64,000 nt of DNA from Ornithinimicrobium tianjinense (GTDB taxonomy: Bacteria > Actinomycetota > Actinomycetes > Actinomycetales > Dermatophilaceae). The stretch lies in NCBI RefSeq assembly GCF_014636495.1, contig NZ_BMEM01000006.1, positions 23,803 to 87,802 of the forward strand. Direction: 5' to 3'. Under the pieces are notes generated by a model that searched no databases, had not been told where the DNA came from, and saw only the letters and a list, made by a program, of their open reading frames with translations. Shown piece after piece: positions 3,592-15,047 of this stretch; position 1 is the first letter of the stretch, and each line of letters opens with the position of its first letter. A program made the translations under genes and the position numbers.

Positions 3592-4509
3592 TCAGCCGAT
3601 GAACTGGCCGAGCCAGGCGAGGTCGTCCACGGTGTCGATGCGGTAGACGCCGCTGGAGCCCGCGCAGGTCTCGTTCATCCCGAACGAGGTGACCGCCACG
3701 ACGGTGGTCGTGTCCTCGACGAACGTCGGGCCGCCGGAGTCGCCGGAGCAGGTGCCGCCGGTGTGGGCGTTGCTGCTCAGCACGACGTAGCTGTCCTGGC
3801 CGGGACCGGCGCCGAACTGGCGGTTGTTGACCAGCACGCCGCCCGCCTTGTACTTGACCCAGTCGGCCTGGTCCAGCCTTGCCTGGTTGTTGACAGAGGG
3901 GTCGGAGTCCCCGCGCGTGGGCATCGCCCACTGCAGGCCGTAGCCGACGGTCTCGTAGGAGTCGCGCGCGTTCTTGGTCAGGGCGAGCTGCTCGTCCCAG
4001 TAGCCGAGCTCGGGCAGCTCGCCGTAGGTCTCGAAGGTGGTGCCCTCCGCGAGCGTCATCTGGTCGACCACCCCGACGTCGTGCAGGTAGAAGGCAGCGT
4101 CGTCGTACTCCGGGTGGTAGATCGCGTCGTAGCTCCAGGCGTCGGCGGCGAGCGCGCTGCTCTGGTCGATCGCGCCGGCCAAGGTCACGAACTCACGCCC
4201 GAGGCGGACGTCCTGGAGGTTGTCGCCGTACCAGACCGCGACGGCGTCGGCGCCGAAGGTGCAGTGGCCGGCGGTGAGGAAGGTGTCGGCGTCCATCTGG
4301 GTGCCGGTGCAGCGCCAGCCGGCGAACAGCTCGTCGTCGGTCTGGACGGTGTCGCCGTTCACGTCGTTCCAGGTGTAGGCGACCATGAGGCCCACGTAGG
4401 GGTGCTCGCCGGCGTCGAGGTCGCCGTACTTGATGGCCGAGGCCGGGAAGGCGGAGGTGGCGACGGCGGCCAGGCCGGCGGCTGCCGCGACAAGGGTGCG
4501 CATACGCAT
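3592..4509 (-). CDS. Secreted trypsin-like (S1 family) serine protease
   Basis: 305 residues. A signal peptide (about 1-25: MRMR, alanine-rich core, PASA) directs it to the Sec system. The chymotrypsin-fold triad is visible: His82 in LTAGHC, Asp144 in YLHDVGVV and Ser258 in GGTCSGDSGGP. Cys67/Cys83 and a cysteine pair around the active serine probably form disulfides. The mature start IKYGD differs from the usual IVGG and there is no long propeptide, so zymogen activation, if any, is atypical. GAAAGGA lies 12 nt before the ATG. Probably an extracellular endopeptidase; specificity not assigned. Confidence 0.9.
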   Translation of the reverse strand: MRMRTLVAAAAGLAAVATSAFPASAIKYGDLDAGEHPYVGLMVAYTWNDVNGDTVQTDDELFAGWRCTGTQMDADTFLTAGHCTFGADAVAVWYGDNLQDVRLGREFVTLAGAIDQSSALAADAWSYDAIYHPEYDDAAFYLHDVGVVDQMTLAEGTTFETYGELPELGYWDEQLALTKNARDSYETVGYGLQWAMPTRGDSDPSVNNQARLDQADWVKYKAGGVLVNNRQFGAGPGQDSYVVLSSNAHTGGTCSGDSGGPTFVEDTTTVVAVTSFGMNETCAGSSGVYRIDTVDDLAWLGQFIG

Positions 4510-4581
4510 CGTTGCGTGGTCCTTTCACGGGTGGTCTGCACGGGGTGTGTCCGCAACCTAACCCGACGGCTCGCGCTCCCG

Positions 4582-5832
4582 CTACCCCAAGGAGCGCTCG
4601 CGGCCCGTCTGCCTGTCCGCGCGCTGAGGGTGGGTGGCGGCGTAGGTGCGCTCCATCTCCAGCTCGTCGGAGACGTGCTGGTCGGTGATGAGCTGGTCTG
4701 TGACGAGCTGGTCGGTGATGAGCTCCGCGGAGGTCAGCGGCCGGGGCGCGACGTCCAGCGGGAGCGGGCCCGGGACGGGCGCCTCGACGAGACCGAGCTC
4801 GTGCATGCGCCGGCTGGTCACGAGCACCCGCGACTCCAGCGTGCCGACGAGCTGGTTGTAGGTCTCGACCGAGCGGCGCAGCGCCCCGCCCATCGTGGAC
4901 AGGTGCCGCCCGACGGTGCCGAGCCGACGGTGGAGGTCGTCGCCCAGGCGCAGCAGCTCCTGGGCGTGGGTTGTGAGCGCGTCCTGCTGCCAGGCGAGGG
5001 CGGTGGCCCGCAGCATCGCGAGCAGCGTGCCGGGGGAGGCCAGCACCACCCGACGGGACTGGGCGTGGTCGTAGAGGTCCGGCTCGGCCCGCAGCGCCGC
5101 CGCCAGCACCGCGTCGCTGGGCACGAAGCAGACCACGAGCTCCGGGGAGGAGGGGAAGGCGCTCCAGTAGGCCTTCGCCGCCAGGGTCTCGACGTGTCCG
5201 CGCAGTGCCGCGGCATGAGCGCGCAGCAGCCGCGCGGCCTCGTCGGCGGACACGTCCTCGCCCTGCGCGCGCAGGAAGGAGGTCAGGGGCGCCTTGCTGT
5301 CGATGACGAGCGTCTTGTCTCCGGGGAGGCGGACGATCGCGTCCGGGCGCACCCGGGCGTCGTGCCGGGTCACGGCGGCGACCTGCTCCTCGAAGTCGCA
5401 CCGCTCCAGCATGCCTGCGTGCTCCAGGACGCGGCGCAGCTGCACCTCGCCCCAGGTGCCCCGCGTGCCGCTGGAGTTGAGGGCGCCCGACAGCGCCGCG
5501 GTCTGGCGGTGCAGGGCTCGGGTCTGCTCGGCGACGTCAGCCAGCTGCGCGCCGACCTGGCCGAACTGCTGCGAGCGGTCGCGCTCGAGGACCCTGACCT
5601 GCTCCTCGACCCGCCGCAGTGCCTGGCTCATCGGCGCGAGCTGGGCGGCCGCCTCCCGGTCCTCGACCAGGGACTCCTCCAGGGCGTGGGCCTGGCGCGC
5701 CCAGCCGTCACGCTCGGCCTCCGCCCGCGCCAGCGCCACCGCTCCTCGACCGCGCGCGAGGAGCCAGCCGGTCGCCATACCGAGCAGGGCGGCGAGGCAG
5801 AGGAGGAGGGCGAGCTGCCACGAGAGGTCCAT
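4582..5832 (-). CDS. rmuC: DNA recombination protein RmuC
   Basis: 416 residues. RmuC family proteins limit DNA inversions between short repeats and carry a nuclease-like fold. One N-terminal membrane helix (about 5-25) is followed by a coiled-coil (about 30-120) and the RmuC core (about 130-360; GTRGTWGEVQLRRVLEHAGM, VIDSKAPL, NQLVGTLESRV). The C-terminus has a degenerate five-residue repeat (ITDQL, VTDQL, ITDQH) encoded by 15-bp repeats at 4678-4722. Divergent from the liv operon over 167 bp. Confidence 0.93.
   Translation of the reverse strand: MDLSWQLALLLCLAALLGMATGWLLARGRGAVALARAEAERDGWARQAHALEESLVEDREAAAQLAPMSQALRRVEEQVRVLERDRSQQFGQVGAQLADVAEQTRALHRQTAALSGALNSSGTRGTWGEVQLRRVLEHAGMLERCDFEEQVAAVTRHDARVRPDAIVRLPGDKTLVIDSKAPLTSFLRAQGEDVSADEAARLLRAHAAALRGHVETLAAKAYWSAFPSSPELVVCFVPSDAVLAAALRAEPDLYDHAQSRRVVLASPGTLLAMLRATALAWQQDALTTHAQELLRLGDDLHRRLGTVGRHLSTMGGALRRSVETYNQLVGTLESRVLVTSRRMHELGLVEAPVPGPLPLDVAPRPLTSAELITDQLVTDQLITDQHVSDELEMERTYAATHPQRADRQTGRERSLG
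4678..4722. repeat. 15-bp in-frame repeats in the rmuC C-terminus
   Basis: Three tandem copies of CTGGTCGGTGATGAG, the middle one with two changes, encode the minus-strand pentapeptide LITDQ/LVTDQ. Because the unit is a multiple of three, copy number can change without frameshift. Confidence 0.8.
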
Positions 5833-5913: not shown

Positions 5914-5974
5914 TTGACACCGGCGCGAAGCCGTCGCTACGGTCGGACCGAAATCTGAATCACCTTTCAGTTTT
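5914..5974 (+). promoter_or_regulatory. Promoter and operator-like repeat of the liv/acyl-CoA ligase operon
   Basis: TTGACA (5914-5919) and TACGGT (5938-5943) are separated by 18 nt, a good housekeeping promoter. Just downstream, around the expected start of transcription, CTGAA (5955-5959) and TTCAG (5966-5970) form an inverted repeat extending to AATCTGAA/TTCAGTTT with one mismatch in eight. This is a typical repressor position, and the operon encodes a TetR protein, so autoregulation is the likely reading. Confidence 0.65.
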
Positions 5975-5999
5975 ATTCGGCCCACGAAGGAGTGCCCCG

Positions 6000-7232
6000 A
6001 TGTCCCGCTCTACCGCCCTCGCGCTGTCGCTGGCGACCGCGCTGTCCTTGGCCGCCTGCGCGCCCAGCCAGTCCGAGCAGTCGAACACCGGCGGCTCGAC
6101 GACCGACACGTCGAGCGGGACCGCCGGCGGCGCCGCCGGCGGTGGCGACCCGTTCCAGGTCGGGATCATCTACTCCGAGACCGGGCCGCTGGCGGCCTAC
6201 GGCAAGCAGTACCGCGAGGGTCTGGAGGCGGGCCTCGACTACGCGACCGGCGGTACCGGCGAGATCGACGGACGGCCCGTCGAGATCACCTACCGCGACG
6301 ACGCCGGCGCCCCCGACACCGCCGTGGCCGCGGCCAAGGACCTGATCGGCCAGGACTTCAAGGTGCTCGGCGGCACCGTGGTCTCGGGCATCGCCGTCGC
6401 TATGGCCGAGCAGGCCGCGCAGAACGAGATCCTCTACATCTCCGGTCCGGCCGCCACCGACGCGATCAGCGGGGTCAACGACTACACCTTCCGGTCCGGG
6501 CGCCAGAGCCTGCAGGACGTCGCCACGGCCGGCGCGATGCTCGACGACGAGGGTGGCAAGGTGGTGGTCCTCGCGCAGGACAACGCCTTCGGCCAGGGCA
6601 ACCTCGCCGCGGTCGAGGCGATCATCGGGGCCCAGGGCGCCGAGGTCGACAGCGTGCTCGTCCCCGAGAGCGCCACGGAGTTCACCGGCTTCGCGCGGCA
6701 GGTCGTCGAGGCCGACCCCGACCTGATCTTCGTCGCCTGGGCGGGTGCGACCGCGGGCAGCATGTGGCAGTCCCTCGACCAGCAGGACGTGTTCGAGGCC
6801 GCGCCGGTCGTCACCGGCCTGGCCGACAGCGCCACCTTCGGCGCCTACGGCCCGATCGGCGAGAAGATCAGCTTCCTGTCGCACTATTTCCCGGGCGCGG
6901 CGGACAACGAGGCCAACCAGGCCCTCGTCGACCACGTGACCGAGGCGGGCGGCACCCCCGACCTGTTCACCAACGACGGCTTCGTCGCGGGCCAGATGAT
7001 CGTCCAGGCCCTGACCGAGGGCGGGGACGACGTCAACGCCATGATCGACGCCCTCGAGGGCTGGCAGTTCGACGGACCCAAGGGCTCGATGACCATCCGC
7101 GAGGGTGACCACGCGCTGCTCCAGCCGATGTTCAGCGCCACGCTGAAGCAGGACGGCGACACCTGGGTCCCCGAGCTCGTCGACACCTTCGAGCCCGACG
7201 AGGTCGCGCCGCCGGAGGCGTCGGGCCGGTGA
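6000..7232 (+). CDS. LIV-type ABC transporter substrate-binding lipoprotein
   Basis: 410 residues. The lipobox SLAAC gives a lipidated Cys20, anchoring the protein outside the membrane. The rest is the two-lobed Peripla_BP_6 fold of LivK-type binding proteins (VGIIYSETGPLAAYG, ALDYATGG, GGTVVSGIAVAMAEQ). Such proteins bind branched-chain amino acids, amides, urea or aromatic and aliphatic acids. With an acyl-CoA ligase downstream, an organic acid is more likely than an amino acid, but this is inference. GAAGGAG is 7 nt before the ATG. First gene of an eight-gene coupled operon; the next gene overlaps its stop (GTGA). Confidence 0.93.
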   Translation: MSRSTALALSLATALSLAACAPSQSEQSNTGGSTTDTSSGTAGGAAGGGDPFQVGIIYSETGPLAAYGKQYREGLEAGLDYATGGTGEIDGRPVEITYRDDAGAPDTAVAAAKDLIGQDFKVLGGTVVSGIAVAMAEQAAQNEILYISGPAATDAISGVNDYTFRSGRQSLQDVATAGAMLDDEGGKVVVLAQDNAFGQGNLAAVEAIIGAQGAEVDSVLVPESATEFTGFARQVVEADPDLIFVAWAGATAGSMWQSLDQQDVFEAAPVVTGLADSATFGAYGPIGEKISFLSHYFPGAADNEANQALVDHVTEAGGTPDLFTNDGFVAGQMIVQALTEGGDDVNAMIDALEGWQFDGPKGSMTIREGDHALLQPMFSATLKQDGDTWVPELVDTFEPDEVAPPEASGR

Positions 7233-8023
7233 CCTCGACGACCCCGGCCGGTGCGGGGGTGGGCCCGTCGCCCACCCCCGCGCTGGAGGTCCGCGGACTG
7301 TCGCTGCGCATCGGCGGCGCGCAGATCCTCGAGGACATCAGCTTCGTCGTGCCGACCGGCCAGGTCGTGGGCGTCATCGGCCCCAACGGCGCCGGCAAGA
7401 CGACGCTGTTCAACCTCGTCTCCGGCGTGCTCGCCCCCACGGGCGGGCAGGTGCTCCTGGACGGCGCCGACGTCACGGGCCGCACCATCACCCAGCGTGC
7501 CAACGCCGGCCTGGGCCGCACCTTCCAGACCTCCTCCCTCTTCCCGGGCCTGAGCGTCGAGGAGAACGTCCGCCTCGCGTCGCAGGTGCACGAGGGCGGG
7601 GCGATCAGCCTCGTGCGTTTCCCCCGCCCGGGCGACCCCGCGTCCCGCCGGGCCCGCGACCTGCTCGGCAGCGTCGGCCTCGGCGACCGCCTGCGCCACC
7701 GCGCCGGCGACCTCCCGCACGGCGACAAGCGCAAGCTCGAGATCGCCATGCTGCTGGCGACCGACCCCTCGGTCGTCCTGCTCGACGAGCCGATGGCCGG
7801 GGTCGCGTCCGGCGACGTGCCCGGGCTCACCGACGTGATCCGCAGCCTCCATCGCGACCACGGGTGCACCGTGCTCATGGTCGAGCACCACATGGAGGTG
7901 CTCCTGGGCCTGGTCGAGCGGGTCGCCGTGCTCCACTTCGGCCACCTGCTGGCGATCGACACCCCGGAGGCCGTCATGGCCGACCCGACCGTCCAGAGCG
8001 CCTACCTGGGGGAGCCCGCATGA
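7229..8023 (+). CDS. LIV-type ABC transporter ATP-binding protein (LivG-like)
   Basis: 264 residues from a GTG overlapping the previous stop. Walker A GPNGAGKTT (51-59), Walker B VVLLDEP (182-188) and the switch histidine (His220, VEHHMEV) are intact. The signature reads LPHGDKRKLE (162-171) in place of the commoner LSYGEQRRLE. The LivG-type extension between Walker A and the signature is present. It powers import together with the second ATPase and the two permeases. The extra 18 N-terminal residues before ALEVRGLS are low complexity. Confidence 0.92.
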   Translation: MTSTTPAGAGVGPSPTPALEVRGLSLRIGGAQILEDISFVVPTGQVVGVIGPNGAGKTTLFNLVSGVLAPTGGQVLLDGADVTGRTITQRANAGLGRTFQTSSLFPGLSVEENVRLASQVHEGGAISLVRFPRPGDPASRRARDLLGSVGLGDRLRHRAGDLPHGDKRKLEIAMLLATDPSVVLLDEPMAGVASGDVPGLTDVIRSLHRDHGCTVLMVEHHMEVLLGLVERVAVLHFGHLLAIDTPEAVMADPTVQSAYLGEPA

Positions 8024-8790
8024 GCCAGCACACGGCATACCCGGAGAAGAGCGCGAGCGGGACGGCCGCGGCACCGGTCCTCGTGGTCCGAGGGCTCCGC
8101 GCGCACGTCGCCGGGCAGCAGGTCGTCGAGCACGTCGACCTCGAGGTGGCGGCCACCGGCGTCACCGCGCTCCTGGGGCGCAACGGCGTGGGCAAGACGT
8201 CGACGATCAAGGCCGTCATGGGGCTCATCGGTCGCGAGGGGGGCATCACCCTGGACGGCCAGGACATCAGCCACCTCCCGACCCACCGGGTCGCGCAGCT
8301 GGGTGTCGGCTACGTGCCGGAGGACCGCGAGGTCTTCTCCGGCCTCACCGTCACCGAGAACCTCCGACTGGCCGAACGACGCGGGTCCGAGCACCGCTAC
8401 GACCTCGTCTACGACCTCTTCCCCGAGCTGCGCGAGCGTGGGCAGCAGGCAGCGGGCACGCTCTCCGGCGGCCAGCAGCAGATGGTCTCCCTCGCGCGGG
8501 CGCTGCTCAACGACAACCGGGTCCTCCTCGTCGACGAGCCGACCAAGGGACTGGCTCCCCGCCTCGTCCAGGAGGTCGCCCGGGTGCTGGCGCACGCCGC
8601 CGAGGTGGTCCCGATCCTGCTCGTGGAGCAGAACCTCCAGGTGGTCCGCACGCTCGCGCGCGACGCCGTCGTGCTGACCGACGGCCGCAGCGTCCACCAC
8701 GGCCCCGCGGCCGAGTTCCTCGACGACCCCGTCGCCACCCAGCGCCTCCTCGGCGTCCACGGCGGCACCGACCCGGCAGGAGCCGTATGA
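8020..8790 (+). CDS. LIV-type ABC transporter ATP-binding protein (LivF-like)
   Basis: 256 residues from ATG 8020, overlapping the previous stop (ATGA). Walker A GRNGVGKT (53-60), signature LSGGQQQM (148-155) and Walker B VLLVDEP (168-174) are intact. VGYVPEDREVF, typical of LivF, follows the Q-loop region. The first 18 residues precede the conserved VLVVRGLRA and are probably disordered. It forms the ATPase pair with the preceding gene. Confidence 0.92.
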   Translation: MSQHTAYPEKSASGTAAAPVLVVRGLRAHVAGQQVVEHVDLEVAATGVTALLGRNGVGKTSTIKAVMGLIGREGGITLDGQDISHLPTHRVAQLGVGYVPEDREVFSGLTVTENLRLAERRGSEHRYDLVYDLFPELRERGQQAAGTLSGGQQQMVSLARALLNDNRVLLVDEPTKGLAPRLVQEVARVLAHAAEVVPILLVEQNLQVVRTLARDAVVLTDGRSVHHGPAAEFLDDPVATQRLLGVHGGTDPAGAV

Positions 8791-9660
8791 GCACCGCGAT
8801 CCTCCTCCTGATCACCGGGATCGGGCTGGGAGCCATCTACTTCCTCGTGGCCTCCGGGCTGAGCCTCATCTACGGCCTGATGGGCGTGCTCAACTTCGCC
8901 CACGGCGTCTTCCTCTCCCTGGGGGCCTTCCTCGGCTACGAGGTGGCGACCCGGCTCGGCAGCTCGACGTGGGGCCGGCTTCGCGGCCTCGCTGCTGGTC
9001 GGTGCGCTGGCCGGCGCCCTCTTCGCCGCCGTGACCGAGCGCCTGCTGGTCCAGCGGCTCTACGAGCGGCACATCGAGCAGGTCCTCGTCACGGTCGGCC
9101 TGGCGCTCGCGACCGTCGCCCTCTTCGACGGCATCTGGGGGACCGACCCGCGCTTCCTCACCGGGCCGGCCTGGATGGAGAGCACCACCCGGATCGCCGG
9201 CGCCAACGTGCCCAACGACAGGTTCATCGCGATCCTGGGAGCGCTCGTGGTCCTGGCGGCCATCGTGCTCTTCCTGCAGCGCACCCGCTTCGGGATGATC
9301 ATCCGCGCCGGCGTCGAGAACAGGTCCATGGTGACCGCGCTGGGGATCGACGTCCGCAACGCCTTCACGCTGGTCTTCACGATCGGCGGCGCGGCGGCTG
9401 GCGTAGGTGGCGTCCTGGCCTCGCACTACTTCGGCTACGTCTCGCCGCTGCTGGGGCAGACCCTGCTCATCTTCGCCTTCATCGTCACGGTCATCGGCGG
9501 GCTCGGTTCGCTGATCGGGGCGGCCGTCGCCTCGGTGCTCGTCGCCGTCCTGCAGCAGTTCGCCAACTACTACCTGTGGGGCACCGGCGACCTGGCGGTC
9601 GTGGTCCTGCTGGCGGCCGTCCTGCTGGCCCGTCCCTCCGGCCTCCTCGGGAGGCAGTGA
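8787..9660 (+). pseudogene. LIV-type ABC permease (LivH-like), split by a one-base frameshift
   Basis: Starts at ATG 8787 (ATGA overlap) with a normal LivH N-terminus (GIGLGAIYFLVASGLSLIYGLMGVLNFAHG) but loses frame after GSSTW near 8972. The rest is open one frame over and ends at 9660 (from SLLVGALAGALFAAV through VIGGLGSLIGAAVASVLVAVLQQ to LLGRQ). Removing one G from the GGGG at 8971-8974 joins the parts as TWAGFAASLL and yields about 290 residues, the normal family length. Either a real inactivating mutation or a homopolymer error. Neighbours are intact and still coupled, which favours an error or a recent event. Confidence 0.9.
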
Positions 9661-10745
9661 TGCGCGCCCCCCTGCTCCGGTATGCCGTGCCGGTCGCCCT
9701 GGCGGTCCTGCTCGCCTGCTTACCGCTGCTCGACCTGAGCCTGCCCGGCGTGCTGCCGGGCGCGACCTACACCCCCGGGACGCTGCACCTGCTCGCCCTG
9801 GCGATGGTGATGGCCTCGCTCGCGCTGTCCTACCACCTGCTGTTCGGCGTCGCGGGCCTGCTGTCCTTCGGTCACGCGCTGTGGTTCGGCCTCGGCGCCT
9901 ACGGGCTCGGCATCGCGCTGCGCGAGCTGGGCCTGGGGATCGTGCCCGGCGCCCTGCTGGTGCTCCTGGCCGCCGTGGTGCTCTCCACCCTGCTGGGGGC
10001 GGTGAGCCTGCGGGTGAGCGGCATCCCGTTCGCCATGGTCACCCTGGCCTTCGCCCAGGCCGCGGCCGTGCTCGTCAGCCGGGACCCCGGCCGCGTGACC
10101 GGCGGCGAGGAGGGCCTGCGCCTGGAGACCGAGCGCGTCCCGGACTGGCTGGTGGGCGTGGCGGACACCCGCAACATCTACTGGCTGGCGCTCGCCGCGC
10201 TGGTGCTGACCTTCGTCGTCGTCACCTGGGTCCAGCACAGCCGGGCGGGCCACGTCGCCGAGGCCGTCCGGGAGAACGAGCTGCGCGTGCGCGTCCTCGG
10301 CATGCGCCCCTTCCTGGTCAAGCTGGCGATCTTCGTGGTGGCGTCGGTGATCGCCGTGGCGGCCGGCATGGTCCACCTGATCCTCAACTCCGGTGCGGTG
10401 CCGCACGCGGTGAGCGCCGACCTGACGATCTCGTTGCTGCTCATGGTCGTCCTGGGTGGGGTCGGCTCCCGCTGGGGCGCGGTGCTGGGCGCCGTGGTCT
10501 ACGTCCTGCTCAGCCAGCGCCTGGCCGTCCTCGCTCAGTCGCCGACCATCCTGGACCTGCCGCCCGTGCTGCGGATCCCCCTGTCAGAGCCGTTGTTCAT
10601 CCTCGGGGCGATCTTCGTGCTCGTCGTGCTCTTCCTGCCCGGAGGGCTGGCGGGCATCGCGACCCGGCTGCGCGCGCGCCGACGCGGCCGGCCGGCCGAG
10701 GTGCGCACCCCAGGCTCGGTCCTCGTGGAGGATGAGACCTCGTGA
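9660..10745 (+). CDS. LIV-type ABC transporter permease (LivM-like)
   Basis: 361 residues, sharing TGATG with the preceding gene. About ten hydrophobic segments and the LivM hallmarks (LLSFGHALWFGLGAYG, GIPFAMVTLAFAQ, VRENELRVRVLGM, VLGGVGSRWGAVLGA) identify the second membrane subunit. The EAVRENE loop is the usual ATPase coupling region. A charged C-terminal tail ends in a GTGA overlap with the ligase gene. Confidence 0.92.
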   Translation: MRAPLLRYAVPVALAVLLACLPLLDLSLPGVLPGATYTPGTLHLLALAMVMASLALSYHLLFGVAGLLSFGHALWFGLGAYGLGIALRELGLGIVPGALLVLLAAVVLSTLLGAVSLRVSGIPFAMVTLAFAQAAAVLVSRDPGRVTGGEEGLRLETERVPDWLVGVADTRNIYWLALAALVLTFVVVTWVQHSRAGHVAEAVRENELRVRVLGMRPFLVKLAIFVVASVIAVAAGMVHLILNSGAVPHAVSADLTISLLLMVVLGGVGSRWGAVLGAVVYVLLSQRLAVLAQSPTILDLPPVLRIPLSEPLFILGAIFVLVVLFLPGGLAGIATRLRARRRGRPAEVRTPGSVLVEDETS

Positions 10746-12307
10746 CCTTTCAGGACGGCCCGCACACCCTCGGCCGGTGGCCCGCCGACCGGGCCCGCCT
10801 GCACCCCGACCGGGTGGCGGTCGTGGACCGCGGCGTCGAGCTGACCTACGCCGAGCTCGAGCGGCGGGCGAGGACGCTCGCCCGGGCCTTCGCGCGCGCG
10901 GGCTACGCGCGCGGCGACCGGGTCGCCACCCTCGTGGGCAACAGCGCCGACCACGTCGTGGCCTTCTTCGCCTGCGCGCGTGCCGGACTGGTGCTCGTGC
11001 CCCTCTCGTGGCGGCTCACGTCGGCCGAGCTGGCCGACCAGCTGGTCCTGGCCGACCCGGCGGTCCTGCTGGTCGAGGAGGAGACCGCGACCCTGGCCCG
11101 CACCGCGCTGGCGAGGACCGGGGAGACCGTGCCCGTGCCCACGGCATACCTGGGGGAGGACGGCGCCGAGCGCGCGCTCCCGGCGCCGCGCCACGGGAGC
11201 CAGGGGGCGCCCGCGCTGCCCGCCGGGCCGGTCGCCGACGACGACCCGGTGCTCATGGTCTTCACCTCCGGCAGCTCGGCGCGGCCCAAGGCCGCCGTCC
11301 TGAGCCACGCCAGCTGCTACTGGACCAACCTGTCGCTGTCGCGCACCCTGGAGCTGGACGAGTCCGACGTGGTGCTCAGCGTCATGCCGCAGTTCCACGT
11401 CGGCGGGTGGAACGTCCAGCCGCTGCTGGCGTGGTGGACCGGCGCCACCGTCGTGCTCGAGCGTGGCTTCGACCCCGGACGCGTGCTGCGCCTCGTGGAG
11501 GAGCGGAGGGTCACGACGATGATGGGCGTCCCCACCCACTACGCGCGGCTCGCCGACCACCCGCGTTTCGGGATGGCCGACTTCATCTCGCTGCGCAGCG
11601 CCGTCGTCGGGGGCGCCCCGATGCCCGCGCCGCTGCTGCGGATCTTCCACGCGCGGGGCGTGGCCCTGACGCAGGGCTACGGCCTGACCGAGGCCGGCCC
11701 CAACGTGCTGTGCGTGCCACCGCGCGAGGCGCTGGACCGCGTGGGCTGGGCCGGTGTTCCCTATCCCCACGTCGACGTCCGCCTCGCCGACCCCGTGACG
11801 GGCGAGGAGGTGGCCGGGGCCGGGTCCGGTGAGCTGCTGGTCCGCGGACCGGGGATGTTCACCGGCTACTTCCGCGATCCGGAGGCGACGGCCGCGGTCT
11901 GGCGTGACGGCTGGCTCGCGACCGGCGACGTGGCCGTGCGCGACGCGTCGGGCTACCTGCGCATCGTCGACCGCCTGCGCAACATCTTCATCAGCGGCGG
12001 CGAGAACGTCGCGCCCGCCGAGGTCGAGGCCGTCCTGCAGACGCACCCGGCGGTCGAGGACGTCGTCGTCGTCGGGGTGCCGGACGAGCGGTGGGGGGAG
12101 CGCGGCGTCGCCCTCGTCGTCCGACGCGCCGGCACGGTGACCGACGAGACGGAGCTGATCGAGCACTGCCGCGAGCGGCTGGCCCCGTTCAAGGTGCCCT
12201 CCTCGGTGCACCTCGTCACGGCGCTGCCCTACCTGTCCGTGGGCAAGGTCGCCCGCGAGCAGGCGCTGCGCGCTGCGCTCGCCGCCGAGGAACTGGAGAC
12301 CCGATGA
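10742..12307 (+). CDS. AMP-forming acyl-CoA synthetase/ligase
   Basis: 521 residues from a GTG overlapping the permease stop. ANL superfamily: P-loop FTSGSSARPKA (174-184), GYGLTEAGP, GDVAVRD, IFISGGENVAPAEVE and the C-terminal lysine region SVGKVARE. It converts a carboxylic acid, ATP and CoA to acyl-CoA, AMP and PPi. The exact substrate (fatty, aromatic or branched acid) is not readable. Being between a permease and a regulator suggests that it traps the imported acid as its CoA ester. Confidence 0.92.
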   Translation: MTFQDGPHTLGRWPADRARLHPDRVAVVDRGVELTYAELERRARTLARAFARAGYARGDRVATLVGNSADHVVAFFACARAGLVLVPLSWRLTSAELADQLVLADPAVLLVEEETATLARTALARTGETVPVPTAYLGEDGAERALPAPRHGSQGAPALPAGPVADDDPVLMVFTSGSSARPKAAVLSHASCYWTNLSLSRTLELDESDVVLSVMPQFHVGGWNVQPLLAWWTGATVVLERGFDPGRVLRLVEERRVTTMMGVPTHYARLADHPRFGMADFISLRSAVVGGAPMPAPLLRIFHARGVALTQGYGLTEAGPNVLCVPPREALDRVGWAGVPYPHVDVRLADPVTGEEVAGAGSGELLVRGPGMFTGYFRDPEATAAVWRDGWLATGDVAVRDASGYLRIVDRLRNIFISGGENVAPAEVEAVLQTHPAVEDVVVVGVPDERWGERGVALVVRRAGTVTDETELIEHCRERLAPFKVPSSVHLVTALPYLSVGKVAREQALRAALAAEELETR

Positions 12308-12966
12308 CCGCCACCGCACCCCGCCCCGCCCGGACCCCGCGCGGCGCCAGGACCCGGGCCCGGCTGCTCGAGGCGGCCGAGCACGTCTTCGAGACCGTCG
12401 GCTACCACGAGGCCTCCATCGTCAAGATCACCGAGGAGGCGGGCGTCGCGCTCGGCACCTTCTACGTGCACTTCAGCGGCAAGAAGGAGATCTTCGACGA
12501 GGTCGTCGGCGACCTCTCGCACCGGGTGCGGCAGGCGATGAGCGAGGCCTCCAGCGCGGTCCCCGACCGGATCGGAGCCGAACGTGCGGGCTTCCGCGCC
12601 TTCTTCCGCTTCACCGCCGAGCACCCGGCCCTCTACCGGATCATCCGCCAGGCGGAGTTCGTCTCGCCCGAGGCGATGCAGGCGCACTACGCCAACATCG
12701 TCGACGGGTATGCCGCAGGCCTCGCCGCGGCGCGCGGGCGCGGCGACATCAGGCCGGTCGACCCGACGGTCGCCGCCTGGGCGCTGATGGGCGCCGGCGA
12801 GCTCATCGGGATGCGCTGGATCCTGTGGGAGCAGGCCGCCGACATCCCCGAGGACGTCTACGAGGCGCTCATGGACGTGGTCCAGGGCGCGCTCGCACCC
12901 ACGACCAGGACGGCGGGTCCGAGCCTGCCGTCGGCCACCACCACCGACACGAGGCCTGACCTATGA
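12304..12966 (+). CDS. TetR-family transcriptional regulator of the liv operon (predicted)
   Basis: 220 residues from ATG 12304 (ATGA overlap with the ligase). The N-terminal HTH (about 15-62; RARLLEAAEHVFETVGYHEASIVKITEEAGVALGTFYVHFSGKKEIFDEVV) is typical. The C-terminal ligand domain probably senses the acid or its CoA ester. Encoded within the operon, so it probably binds the inverted repeat at 5952-5974; that pairing is inferred from position only. Confidence 0.9.
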   Translation: MTATAPRPARTPRGARTRARLLEAAEHVFETVGYHEASIVKITEEAGVALGTFYVHFSGKKEIFDEVVGDLSHRVRQAMSEASSAVPDRIGAERAGFRAFFRFTAEHPALYRIIRQAEFVSPEAMQAHYANIVDGYAAGLAAARGRGDIRPVDPTVAAWALMGAGELIGMRWILWEQAADIPEDVYEALMDVVQGALAPTTRTAGPSLPSATTTDTRPDL

Positions 12967-13910
12967 GCGACGCCGCCACCCACCCCGACGCGCTGCCCGA
13001 GTCCGTCCAGGCGGTCGTGGGTGAGCGTCACCGCACGCTCGACGTCCCCGTCCGCGGCGGCACCATGCGGGTCGGCCTGTGGGAGCCGGAGGGCGACGCG
13101 TCGGTCGCGCCGACCGTCGTCGCGGTCCACGGCATCACCTCCTCGCACGTGGCGTGGGCCGAGCTGGCCCGGGCCATGCCCGACGTGCGGATCGTCGCTC
13201 CGGACCTGCGCGGCCGCGGCCGCTCGCGGGACCTGCCCGGTCCCTACGGCATGCCGACGCACGCCGACGACGTCGCCGCCGTGCTGCACCATCTCGGGCT
13301 CACGCAGGCGGTCGCGGTCGGGCACTCGATGGGCGGGTTCGTCTCGGTCGTCCTCGCCCACCGCCACCCCACGCTCGTCACCTCGCTCGTCCTCGTCGAC
13401 GGGGGTATGCCGCTCCTCCCGCCGCCCGGCGTCGCCCCAGACCAGATGGCGGCGGCCGTCCTGGGGCCGGCCGCCGACCGGCTGGTGATGACGTTCGCCG
13501 ACCGTGCGGCCTACCGCGAGTTCTGGCGCGACCACCCGGCTATCGGGGCGGAGTGGACGGACCTGACGACGGCCTACGTGGACTACGACCTCGTGGAGGA
13601 GGGCGGCGCGTGGCGTGCGGCCACGCGGGTCGAGGCGCTCCAGGAGGACATCCGCGAGCTCGTCGACGGCGACTCGGTCGCGCGCGCGCTGGCTGCGCTC
13701 GAGCACCCGACGACCTGGATGCTGGCGCCGCGCGGGCTGATGGACGAGGTGCCGCCCCTCTATCCCGACCCGGCACGGGCACGCTGGACGGGCGAGCACC
13801 CCGAGATGCGGGTGGTCGACGTGGACGACGTCAACCACTACTCGATCGTCCTGCTGCGGCGCGGTGTGGAGCAGCTGGTGCCGGTCGTGCGCGAGGCGCT
13901 GGGGCGGTGA
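12963..13910 (+). CDS. Alpha/beta hydrolase, last gene of the liv operon
   Basis: 315 residues, ATGA overlap with tetR. Nucleophile elbow GHSMGG, oxyanion HGITSS, catalytic acid near PTTWMLAP and His in DDVNHYSIV. The N-terminal 35 residues form a small extra beta region. Members cleave esters, thioesters or C-C bonds; here it may release the transported acid from an ester or hydrolyse its CoA derivative. That is context-based only. Transcription probably ends before ychF, which has its own promoter. Confidence 0.88.
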   Translation: MSDAATHPDALPESVQAVVGERHRTLDVPVRGGTMRVGLWEPEGDASVAPTVVAVHGITSSHVAWAELARAMPDVRIVAPDLRGRGRSRDLPGPYGMPTHADDVAAVLHHLGLTQAVAVGHSMGGFVSVVLAHRHPTLVTSLVLVDGGMPLLPPPGVAPDQMAAAVLGPAADRLVMTFADRAAYREFWRDHPAIGAEWTDLTTAYVDYDLVEEGGAWRAATRVEALQEDIRELVDGDSVARALAALEHPTTWMLAPRGLMDEVPPLYPDPARARWTGEHPEMRVVDVDDVNHYSIVLLRRGVEQLVPVVREALGR

Positions 13911-13961: not shown

Positions 13962-15047
13962 GTGGCTCTCACCATCGGTATCGTCGGCCTGCCCAACGTG
14001 GGCAAGTCCACCCTCTTCAACGCCCTGACCAAGAACTCCGTGCTCGCGGCGAACTACCCGTTCGCCACCATCGAGCCCAACGTCGGGGTGGTCCCGCTCA
14101 AGGACGCGCGGCTGGACCGACTGTCCGAGATCTTCGGGTCGGCCCGCATCCTGCCCGCGACCGTGAGCTTCGTGGACATCGCCGGCATCGTGCGCGGCGC
14201 GAGCGAGGGGGAGGGGCTGGGCAACAAGTTCCTCGCCAACATCCGCGAGGCGGACGCGATCTGCCAGGTCGTGCGCGCCTTCCGCGACGACGACGTCGTG
14301 CACGTCGACGGCAAGGTGAGCCCGCGCGACGACATCGAGACCATCAACACCGAGCTGGTGCTGGCCGACCTGCAGACCCTCGAGAATGCGGTCCCGCGCC
14401 TCGAGAAGGAGGTCAAGGGCAAGCGCGCCGACAAGGAGGTCCTCGACACCGCGCTCGCCGCGCAGAAGGTGCTCGAGGCCGGTGACACGCTGTATGCCGC
14501 CGGCGAGGCCGGCGGTGTCGACCTGGCGATCGCCAAGAGCCTCGGGCTGCTGACGACCAAGCCCTTCATCTACGTCTTCAACCTCGACGAGGACGGGCTG
14601 ACCGACAGCGAGCTGCACGACGAGCTCGCCGCCCTCGTCGCGCCCGCCGAGGCGGTCTACCTCAACGCCAAGCTCGAGGCTGACCTGGCGGAGCTGGACG
14701 AGGAGGAAGCGCGCGAGCTGCTGGAGTCCGTGGGTGTGACGGAGCCCGGCCTGGACCAGCTGGCCCGCATCGGCTTCGACACCCTCGGTCTGCAGACCTA
14801 CCTCACCGCGGGGCCCAAGGAGTCGCGGGCCTGGACGATCCGCAAGGGCTGGACCGCTCCCCAGGCCGCCGGCGTCATCCACACCGACTTCGAGCGCGGC
14901 TTCATCAAGGCCGAGGTGGTCTCCTTCGCCGACCTCGACGCGGCGGGCTCGATGGCCAGGGCCAAGGAGGCCGGCCGGGTCAGGATCGAGGGCAAGGACT
15001 ACGTGATGGCCGACGGCGACGTGGTGGAGTTCCGGTTTAACGTCTAG
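13962..15047 (+). CDS. ychF: Ribosome-binding GTPase/ATPase YchF
   Basis: 361 residues from GTG. YchF (Obg-related) is a universal translation-associated nucleotidase. G1 GLPNVGKST (9-17), the VDIAGIVRGASEGEGLGNKFL G3/helix, a helical coiled-coil domain in the middle and the C-terminal TGS domain (RKGWTAPQAAGVIHTDFERGFIKAEV, GKDYVMADGDVVEFRFNV) are complete. The final codons CGG TTT AAC GTC TAG are unlike local codon use, and a more typical version of this 26-bp end recurs at 16007-16032. Integration at the gene's 3' end with replacement of its last codons is the likely cause; the protein is unchanged. Confidence 0.97.
   Translation: MALTIGIVGLPNVGKSTLFNALTKNSVLAANYPFATIEPNVGVVPLKDARLDRLSEIFGSARILPATVSFVDIAGIVRGASEGEGLGNKFLANIREADAICQVVRAFRDDDVVHVDGKVSPRDDIETINTELVLADLQTLENAVPRLEKEVKGKRADKEVLDTALAAQKVLEAGDTLYAAGEAGGVDLAIAKSLGLLTTKPFIYVFNLDEDGLTDSELHDELAALVAPAEAVYLNAKLEADLAELDEEEARELLESVGVTEPGLDQLARIGFDTLGLQTYLTAGPKESRAWTIRKGWTAPQAAGVIHTDFERGFIKAEVVSFADLDAAGSMARAKEAGRVRIEGKDYVMADGDVVEFRFNV
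15019..15044 (+). repeat. Direct repeat, left copy (ychF 3' end; putative att site)
   Basis: ACGTGGTGGAGTTCCG, then a 10-nt tail (GTTTAACGTC). 24 of 26 positions match the copy at 16007-16032. It encodes DVVEFRFNV of YchF. The pair brackets about 960 bp that include the toxin-antitoxin genes. Confidence 0.85.

Follow-up and report, generated by a model that had tools for sequence, protein, structure and literature searches.

The 64,000-nucleotide stretch of the Ornithinimicrobium tianjinense genome analysed here, hereafter the window (G000:C6:23803-87802, from a genome of 3.3 Mb in 12 contigs), contains an operon that we predict to import and assimilate (R)-3-hydroxybutyrate, and probably its short esters or oligomers, by means of a LIV/HAAT-type importer. 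We assign this reading a probability of roughly 0.75, based on comparisons of sequence and gene content. The operon comprises 8 genes on the + strand (6000-13910), which are listed here together with the position at which most relatives carry an additional gene, for 3-hydroxybutyrate dehydrogenase (BDH).

6000-7232, + strand: substrate-binding lipoprotein of the LIV/HAAT type (Pfam PF13458, Peripla_BP_6; best PDB match RPA4397, 3n0x)
7229-8023, + strand: ABC ATPase 1, LivG-like (Pfam and NCBIfam profile matches)
8020-8790, + strand: ABC ATPase 2, LivF-like (Pfam and NCBIfam profile matches)
8787-9660, + strand: permease 1, LivH-like, with a reading frame broken near 8975-8985 (translation and comparison with relatives)
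9660-10745, + strand: permease 2, LivM-like (NCBIfam profile matches)
10742-12307, + strand: AMP-forming acid-CoA ligase (AMP-binding, 292 bits), putative substrate (R)-3-hydroxybutyrate or acetoacetate
12304-12966, + strand: TetR regulator (best PDB match the acyl-CoA-sensing FadRSa, 6el2)
12966-12966, no strand: slot that holds a BDH gene in 20 of 23 ligase-type relatives, absent here
12963-13910, + strand: alpha/beta hydrolase, probably an intracellular esterase (Ser122, within GHSMG, and His292 do not vary among 24 aligned sequences)

As read from the sequence, the genes overlap at all 7 junctions, by 4 bp (ATGA or GTGA) at 6 of them and by 1 bp at the junction between the 2 permease genes. 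All 8 genes recur in the same order in 23 relatives with a ligase-type operon, so their coupling is not a matter of chance. The original prediction for this locus had described 8 genes overlapping at every junction and had proposed to look for the same order in the neighbourhoods of other genomes; the overlaps were borne out, the order was found to recur, and the form of the operon without a BDH gene was not rare.

A search of 97 relatives for the binding protein found it at E <= 1e-40 in 30 genomes, including that of the window. Most of the ligase-type loci contained some 750 additional bases after the TetR gene and before the hydrolase gene, which encode a short-chain dehydrogenase. A BDH gene was identified at this position in 20 of the 23 ligase-type relatives in which the stretch was readable, a count that leaves out L062 and L063, which are cut by contig ends. 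Both copies tested passed the TIGR01963 cut-off of 307.05 bits (317 bits in L052 and 307.1 bits in L055), and in the PDB the L052 protein matched D-3-hydroxybutyrate dehydrogenases best. The earlier statement that the operon contains no other catabolic gene therefore holds for the window copy only and fails for the relatives. Similarly, the substrate had been left as an acid without a name, which is fair for the window copy, but the ketone-body genes linked to the operon in relatives point to 3-hydroxybutyrate. It was also noted that the operon BDH gene of one relative (L044 in G004) is split over 2 frames and that another partial copy is located elsewhere in the same genome.

The BDH gene is absent from the cluster at 12966 in the genome of the window, in which a single match at E <= 1e-40 was identified on another contig (G000:C1:1277630-1278355). 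This protein is 79% identical to the L052 copy and passed the NF009093 cut-off (262 versus 258 bits), and its gene adjoins, in divergent orientation, a second LIV-type cluster; a gene for a PucR-type regulator is found further along. In a tree inferred from BDH matches of at least 220 aligned columns, from which the split copy in L044 was excluded, this protein and similar copies were nested inside the operon copies of the genus. Three genomes (G008, G010, and G015) carried both kinds, one copy in the operon and one elsewhere, and in the close relative G005 the genes for the ligase, TetR, BDH, hydrolase, and YchF were found in this order on one contig. Because of the nesting, the co-occurrence of both kinds and the intact arrangement in G005, these patterns are best read as a duplication followed by a secondary loss of the in-operon gene from the lineage of the window. 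In G012, solely the BDH and hydrolase genes are left between the same flanking genes. A BDH match was obtained in 30 of the 30 genomes with the binding protein, that of G004 consisting of broken pieces, and in 18 of the 67 genomes without it; the Fisher p value of 7e-13 overstates the evidence since the genomes are related and not independent.

The second LIV-type cluster (L074; G000:C1:1266000-1285900) encodes a binding protein of about 27% identity, and such a cluster is paired with a BDH gene in several other members of the genus.

A scan of 393 genomes across the class identified the binding protein at E <= 1e-60 in 35 genomes, including that of the window, and 31 new loci were read. A BDH gene was located near the importer genes in 25 of these, in 3 arrangements; a dehydrogenase of 28% identity in L134 was not counted. 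Type I loci (11) contained the importer, ligase, TetR, and hydrolase genes in this order, with a BDH gene before the hydrolase gene in 9. In most of the type II loci (14) the hydrolase gene follows the importer genes; on the opposite strand, 10 of these carried a BDH gene together with one for a PucR-type regulator, and 4 lacked such a BDH gene. The BDH and hydrolase genes were divergent from the importer genes in all 6 type III loci, at 36% to 41% identity. The type III genomes are 1.4 to 1.9 Mb in size with 45% to 47% GC, and presumably resemble those of freshwater Nanopelagicales. A gene for acetoacetate-CoA ligase was located close downstream in 4 of the 6, in L146 directly after the permease genes (692 versus 521 bits), and the BDH in L146 passed the NF009093 cut-off (280 versus 258 bits). 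A pair of 3-oxoacid CoA-transferase genes was located within about 1 kb beyond the hydrolase gene in 9 of 55 genomes searched; in both loci tested the pair passed the ScoA and ScoB NCBIfam cut-offs, and L054 adds a thiolase gene.

Two side observations concern these arrangements. In the small genomes of L144 and L146 to L148 (45% to 47% GC), the clustering of genes for the importer, dehydrogenase, hydrolase, and acetoacetate-CoA ligase places much of the pathway together in a streamlined genome. The PucR-type regulator encoded beside BDH in type II loci (L057, L058, L060, L130-L133, L135-L138, L140, and L141) contains a GAF domain and is a candidate regulator of the neighbouring BDH gene; it is in 2 pieces in L138.

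Named genomes were scanned as well, and the best 80 loci were examined, of which 72 were counted as complete and 8 with less than 7.5 kb downstream were set aside. Judged by length, no fewer than 13 of these 80 contigs are already represented in the first set, such that the counts overlap. The nearest named relatives among the matches listed belonged to Ornithinimicrobium and Serinicoccus. Within the fetched stretches, the ligase and TetR genes were present in 70 of the 72 complete loci and the hydrolase gene in 71, while the importer, ligase, TetR, and hydrolase genes were found all together in 69. A BDH gene was located near the importer genes in 52 and the CoA-transferase pair in 31, and 17 contained the ligase, TetR, and hydrolase genes with neither of them. 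One locus titled as an Acidobacteria metagenome-assembled genome (L160) showed the operon start at 78% identity; the corresponding contig (G005:C203) counts as the same genus, and the title is apparently a mislabel.

Eight plasmid records also matched, 7 of which are from outside the Actinomycetes. In Mariluticola, which is outside the phylum, a BDH gene is located directly upstream of the binding-protein gene (370 bits) and a hydrolase gene after the permease genes. Four alphaproteobacterial loci with a different gene set, including MaoC, are considered below, and the 3 remaining records contained neither BDH nor the MaoC-type set, with other acyl-CoA genes nearby.

In the pathway that we propose, the lipoprotein would bind the ligand outside the cell and the 2 ATPases and 2 permeases, judged by their families, would bring it in, where the alpha/beta hydrolase would cleave ester or oligomer forms. 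BDH, whose gene occupies the slot in most relatives and lies on a different contig in this genome, would oxidise 3-hydroxybutyrate to acetoacetate, as expected of its family. Acetoacetate would be activated by a CoA-transferase or ligase and then split by thiolase to yield acetyl-CoA, and the ligase of the operon itself would make the CoA ester of either 3-hydroxybutyrate or acetoacetate. The relatives have the content of a 3-hydroxybutyrate utilisation cluster, with BDH in the cluster and genes for acetoacetate activation or thiolase linked to it. This scheme agrees with the original prediction that one class of substrate is imported, converted to CoA thioesters, and handled in ester form, except that the unit is not self-contained, given the BDH, CoA-transferase, and thiolase genes in relatives. 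The profile search gave no match to PhaC_N (polyhydroxyalkanoate synthase) or Esterase_PHB in the genome of the window, which makes an outside source likely and is consistent with import rather than recycling. Of the 30 genomes that encode the binding protein, 6 had PhaC_N matches over the cut-off.

The importer is of the LIV/HAAT type in that a lipoprotein with the Peripla_BP_6 fold (199 bits, cut-off 31.7), 2 ATPases, and 2 LIV-type permeases are encoded in one unit. The NCBIfam rows for LIV and urea transporters shown for the 5 importer proteins were all below their cut-offs (for permease 1, its C-terminal part only), with the binding protein scoring 48 of 477 and 39 of 493 bits. The structural model of the binding protein (pLDDT 85.5) was most similar to RPA4397 (Z 43.9, 33% identity). 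The acidic residue that we take to bind the amine in LivJ aligned to a non-acidic residue here, although the 2 alignments differ in its placement and an acidic residue lies close by in 6 of 21 aligned rows.

The operon ligase was not over the TIGR01217 (acetoacetate-CoA ligase) cut-off among the matches listed, where the sole such match in the genome is encoded at C1:548081-550039 (767 versus 521 bits). Both this gene and a CoA-transferase pair are located on contig C1 and the operon on C6. We see 2 candidate products of the operon ligase, each at somewhat less than even odds: the CoA ester of 3-hydroxybutyrate and, only slightly less likely, that of acetoacetate. The hydrolase scored below the polyhydroxyalkanoate depolymerase cut-offs (NF050089, 50.5 of 300 bits; TIGR02240, 24.6 of 250.6 bits).

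A number of observations weigh against the assignment to 3-hydroxybutyrate. Three of the 23 ligase-type relatives (L035, L036, and L053) lack a BDH gene in the slot, as does the window, and no BDH gene was located nearby in 6 of the 31 class-wide loci and in 20 of the 72 complete named loci. The latter include several from Arthrobacter and Pseudarthrobacter with the 8-gene order of the window; a BDH gene was found elsewhere in 19 of the 19 BDH-less named genomes searched (L203 was left out). The BDH of the window genome scored 301 bits, just under the TIGR01963 cut-off of 307, and the L146 protein, the sole copy tested from a small genome, was also under it with 267 bits. Furthermore, the importer genes of the 4 Alphaproteobacteria (34% to 36% identity) are accompanied by genes for a hydrolase, an AMP-ligase, MaoC, enoyl-CoA hydratase, and TetR, with no annotated BDH gene within 8 kb. 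Compared with the window, their ligases are 34% to 38% identical, the 2 TetR proteins compared 41% to 46% identical and the hydrolases hardly alike. If the ligase makes (R)-3-hydroxyacyl-CoA, a MaoC-hydratase set would be a suitable partner for it, and these loci thus suggest that another hydroxy acid is possible as the substrate. The same cluster would then serve some other short 3-hydroxy acid or its esters, such as 3-hydroxyvalerate or a branched hydroxy acid, with a dehydrogenase adapted to it, which would also suit the missing BDH genes in the named loci and the score of the BDH of the window genome. However, the clustered genes for CoA-transferase, thiolase, and acetoacetate-CoA ligase indicate C4 acids, and we consider this alternative unlikely.

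The properties of individual proteins also leave room for doubt. The acetoacetate-CoA ligase and CoA-transferase pair encoded elsewhere in the genome imply that acetoacetate does not require the operon ligase, the model of the hydrolase (pLDDT 94) matched generic hydrolases in the fold search, and those structural neighbours of the binding protein that were solved with a ligand contain aromatic acids, amino acids, amides, or urea. Aromatic acids had been the precedent named in the original prediction, and a unit for the uptake of a cinnamate- or benzoate-type acid by a LIV-type importer with a CoA ligase would fit the best PDB matches of the ligase, which were entries named feruloyl-CoA synthetase and fatty-acyl-CoA synthase. 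Several of the structural neighbours hold 4-hydroxybenzoate, vanillate, or p-coumarate, and the mbd cluster, as presented in passages of PMC4424350, provides a precedent for ABC genes with a CoA ligase and TetR. On the other hand, the partner genes in relatives are ketone-body genes, namely those for BDH, CoA-transferase, thiolase, and acetoacetate-CoA ligase, and RPA4397, the closest structure at 32% to 33% identity, has no ligand in its title. Since the linked genes point elsewhere, an aromatic acid is not our best guess and ranks as a quite improbable rival. An ordinary importer of branched-chain amino acids, urea, or amides with unrelated neighbours is more improbable still; it would agree with the fold family and with the presence of LIV and urea transporters among the NCBIfam rows, but all of the latter were below their cut-offs, and the linkage to hydrolase, BDH, and ligase genes recurs across families.

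The broken frame of permease 1 bears on whether the window copy works. Roughly 60 codons from the start follow the frame of 8787 and the remainder that of 8983-9660, and among the 29 loci compared with an intact copy only that of the window was split over 2 frames; the aligned stretch in L038 contains a stop, and the L056 alignment begins at residue 18. Either the draft assembly contains an error here or the gene suffered a lesion recently, in which case the importer would be disabled. This is a further point against 3-hydroxybutyrate uptake by the operon in this strain, where the copy may be inactive. The open reading frame of 652 amino acids at 8787-10745 is an artefact of the break.

Two elements were identified upstream of the binding-protein gene.

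5914-5943, + strand: promoter-like TTGACA - 18 nt - TACGGT (read from the sequence)
5951-5974, + strand: operator-like dyad with the core TGAATCACCTTTCA at 5956-5969 (conserved in relatives of the genus)

A TTGAC(A/T) hexamer precedes the dyad in relatives whose displayed stretch reaches that far, and a simple promoter and terminator scan, with a strict sigma-70 pattern, gave no match. All 23 stretches compared upstream of the binding-protein gene (the window and 22 relatives of the genus) contained the pattern TGAA-N6-TTCA. It was flanked by CAT..ATG in 11 and by CCT..AGG in 7, the two sides having changed together, with less symmetric flanks in the other 5, including the window. At 2 or fewer mismatches, the core had a single match in the genome of the window. 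Among the 6 genomes scanned, further 2-mismatch sites were found in G027 (5) and in G015 (1); as a control, the reversed pattern matched once each in G000 and G015. The dyad was sought at the BDH locus of the window genome and was not present there; this BDH gene is therefore probably outside the regulon of the operon TetR. The closest solved relative of the TetR protein is FadRSa (6el2, E 1.6e-26), and the mbd cluster is described in parts of PMC4424350 as having a TetR repressor that is released by the acyl-CoA product. From this relationship and precedent, it is likely that repression is lifted by a CoA ester, with the TetR protein probably acting from the predicted dyad near the transcription start.

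The operon is flanked by genes at 407-1642, 3592-5832, and 13962-15047, among which the large subunit of exonuclease VII was identified by Pfam. By eye, we take further flanking genes to encode protease-like and RmuC-like proteins and presumably a YchF-type GTPase. In many members of the genus, the operon lies between RmuC-like and YchF-like genes.

In the plasmid records, among others, permeases of importers of this kind carry the annotation of branched-chain amino-acid transporters. It is conceivable, though we would put it below even odds, that a widespread and mislabelled class of LIV-type importers takes up oligomers or esters of 3-hydroxybutyrate instead of amino acids and is paired with an esterase dedicated to them inside the cell, in Actinomycetes with small and large genomes and with a relative in Alphaproteobacteria. 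If so, this class would allow bacteria without a polyhydroxybutyrate synthase to scavenge breakdown products of the storage polymer of others, and cross-feeding on polyhydroxybutyrate would become testable by gene content. Tying the class to 3-hydroxybutyrate would also correct the inferred diet of many Actinomycetes.

The closest solved binding protein, RPA4397 of Rhodopseudomonas palustris (PDB 3n0x and 3nnd), has a locus tag that was not found in the open-licence literature. The aromatic-acid importers of R. palustris (4f8j, presumably CouP) are likewise of the LIV type and share the fold, but the identity is only about 20% and their ligands are aromatic. FadRSa of Sulfolobus acidocaldarius (6el2, 6en8), the closest solved relative of the TetR protein, has an acyl-CoA ligand according to passages of PMC6449355, and differs in being archaeal and in controlling a fatty-acid regulon. 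The Azoarcus mbd cluster (mbdB1-B5, mbdA, and mbdR), likened here by description from parts of PMC4424350, resembles the window in combining ABC genes and an acid-CoA ligase gene in one operon; unlike the window, its substrate is 3-methylbenzoate and its regulator is encoded in an operon of its own, and those parts of the paper mention no BDH. No prior report of a LIV-type 3-hydroxybutyrate importer was listed in searches of an open-licence library. The hbtABC system of Ruegeria pomeroyi (SPO2571-2573), called the only confirmed bacterial 3-hydroxybutyrate uptake system in a passage of a 2023 paper (PMC10130141), performs the uptake proposed for the window operon, but it consists of 3 genes and is likened by description. 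The operon would thus, if correctly assigned, represent a second type of 3-hydroxybutyrate importer besides hbtABC; its parts are of known kinds, and the new element is the substrate assignment and its wide spread.

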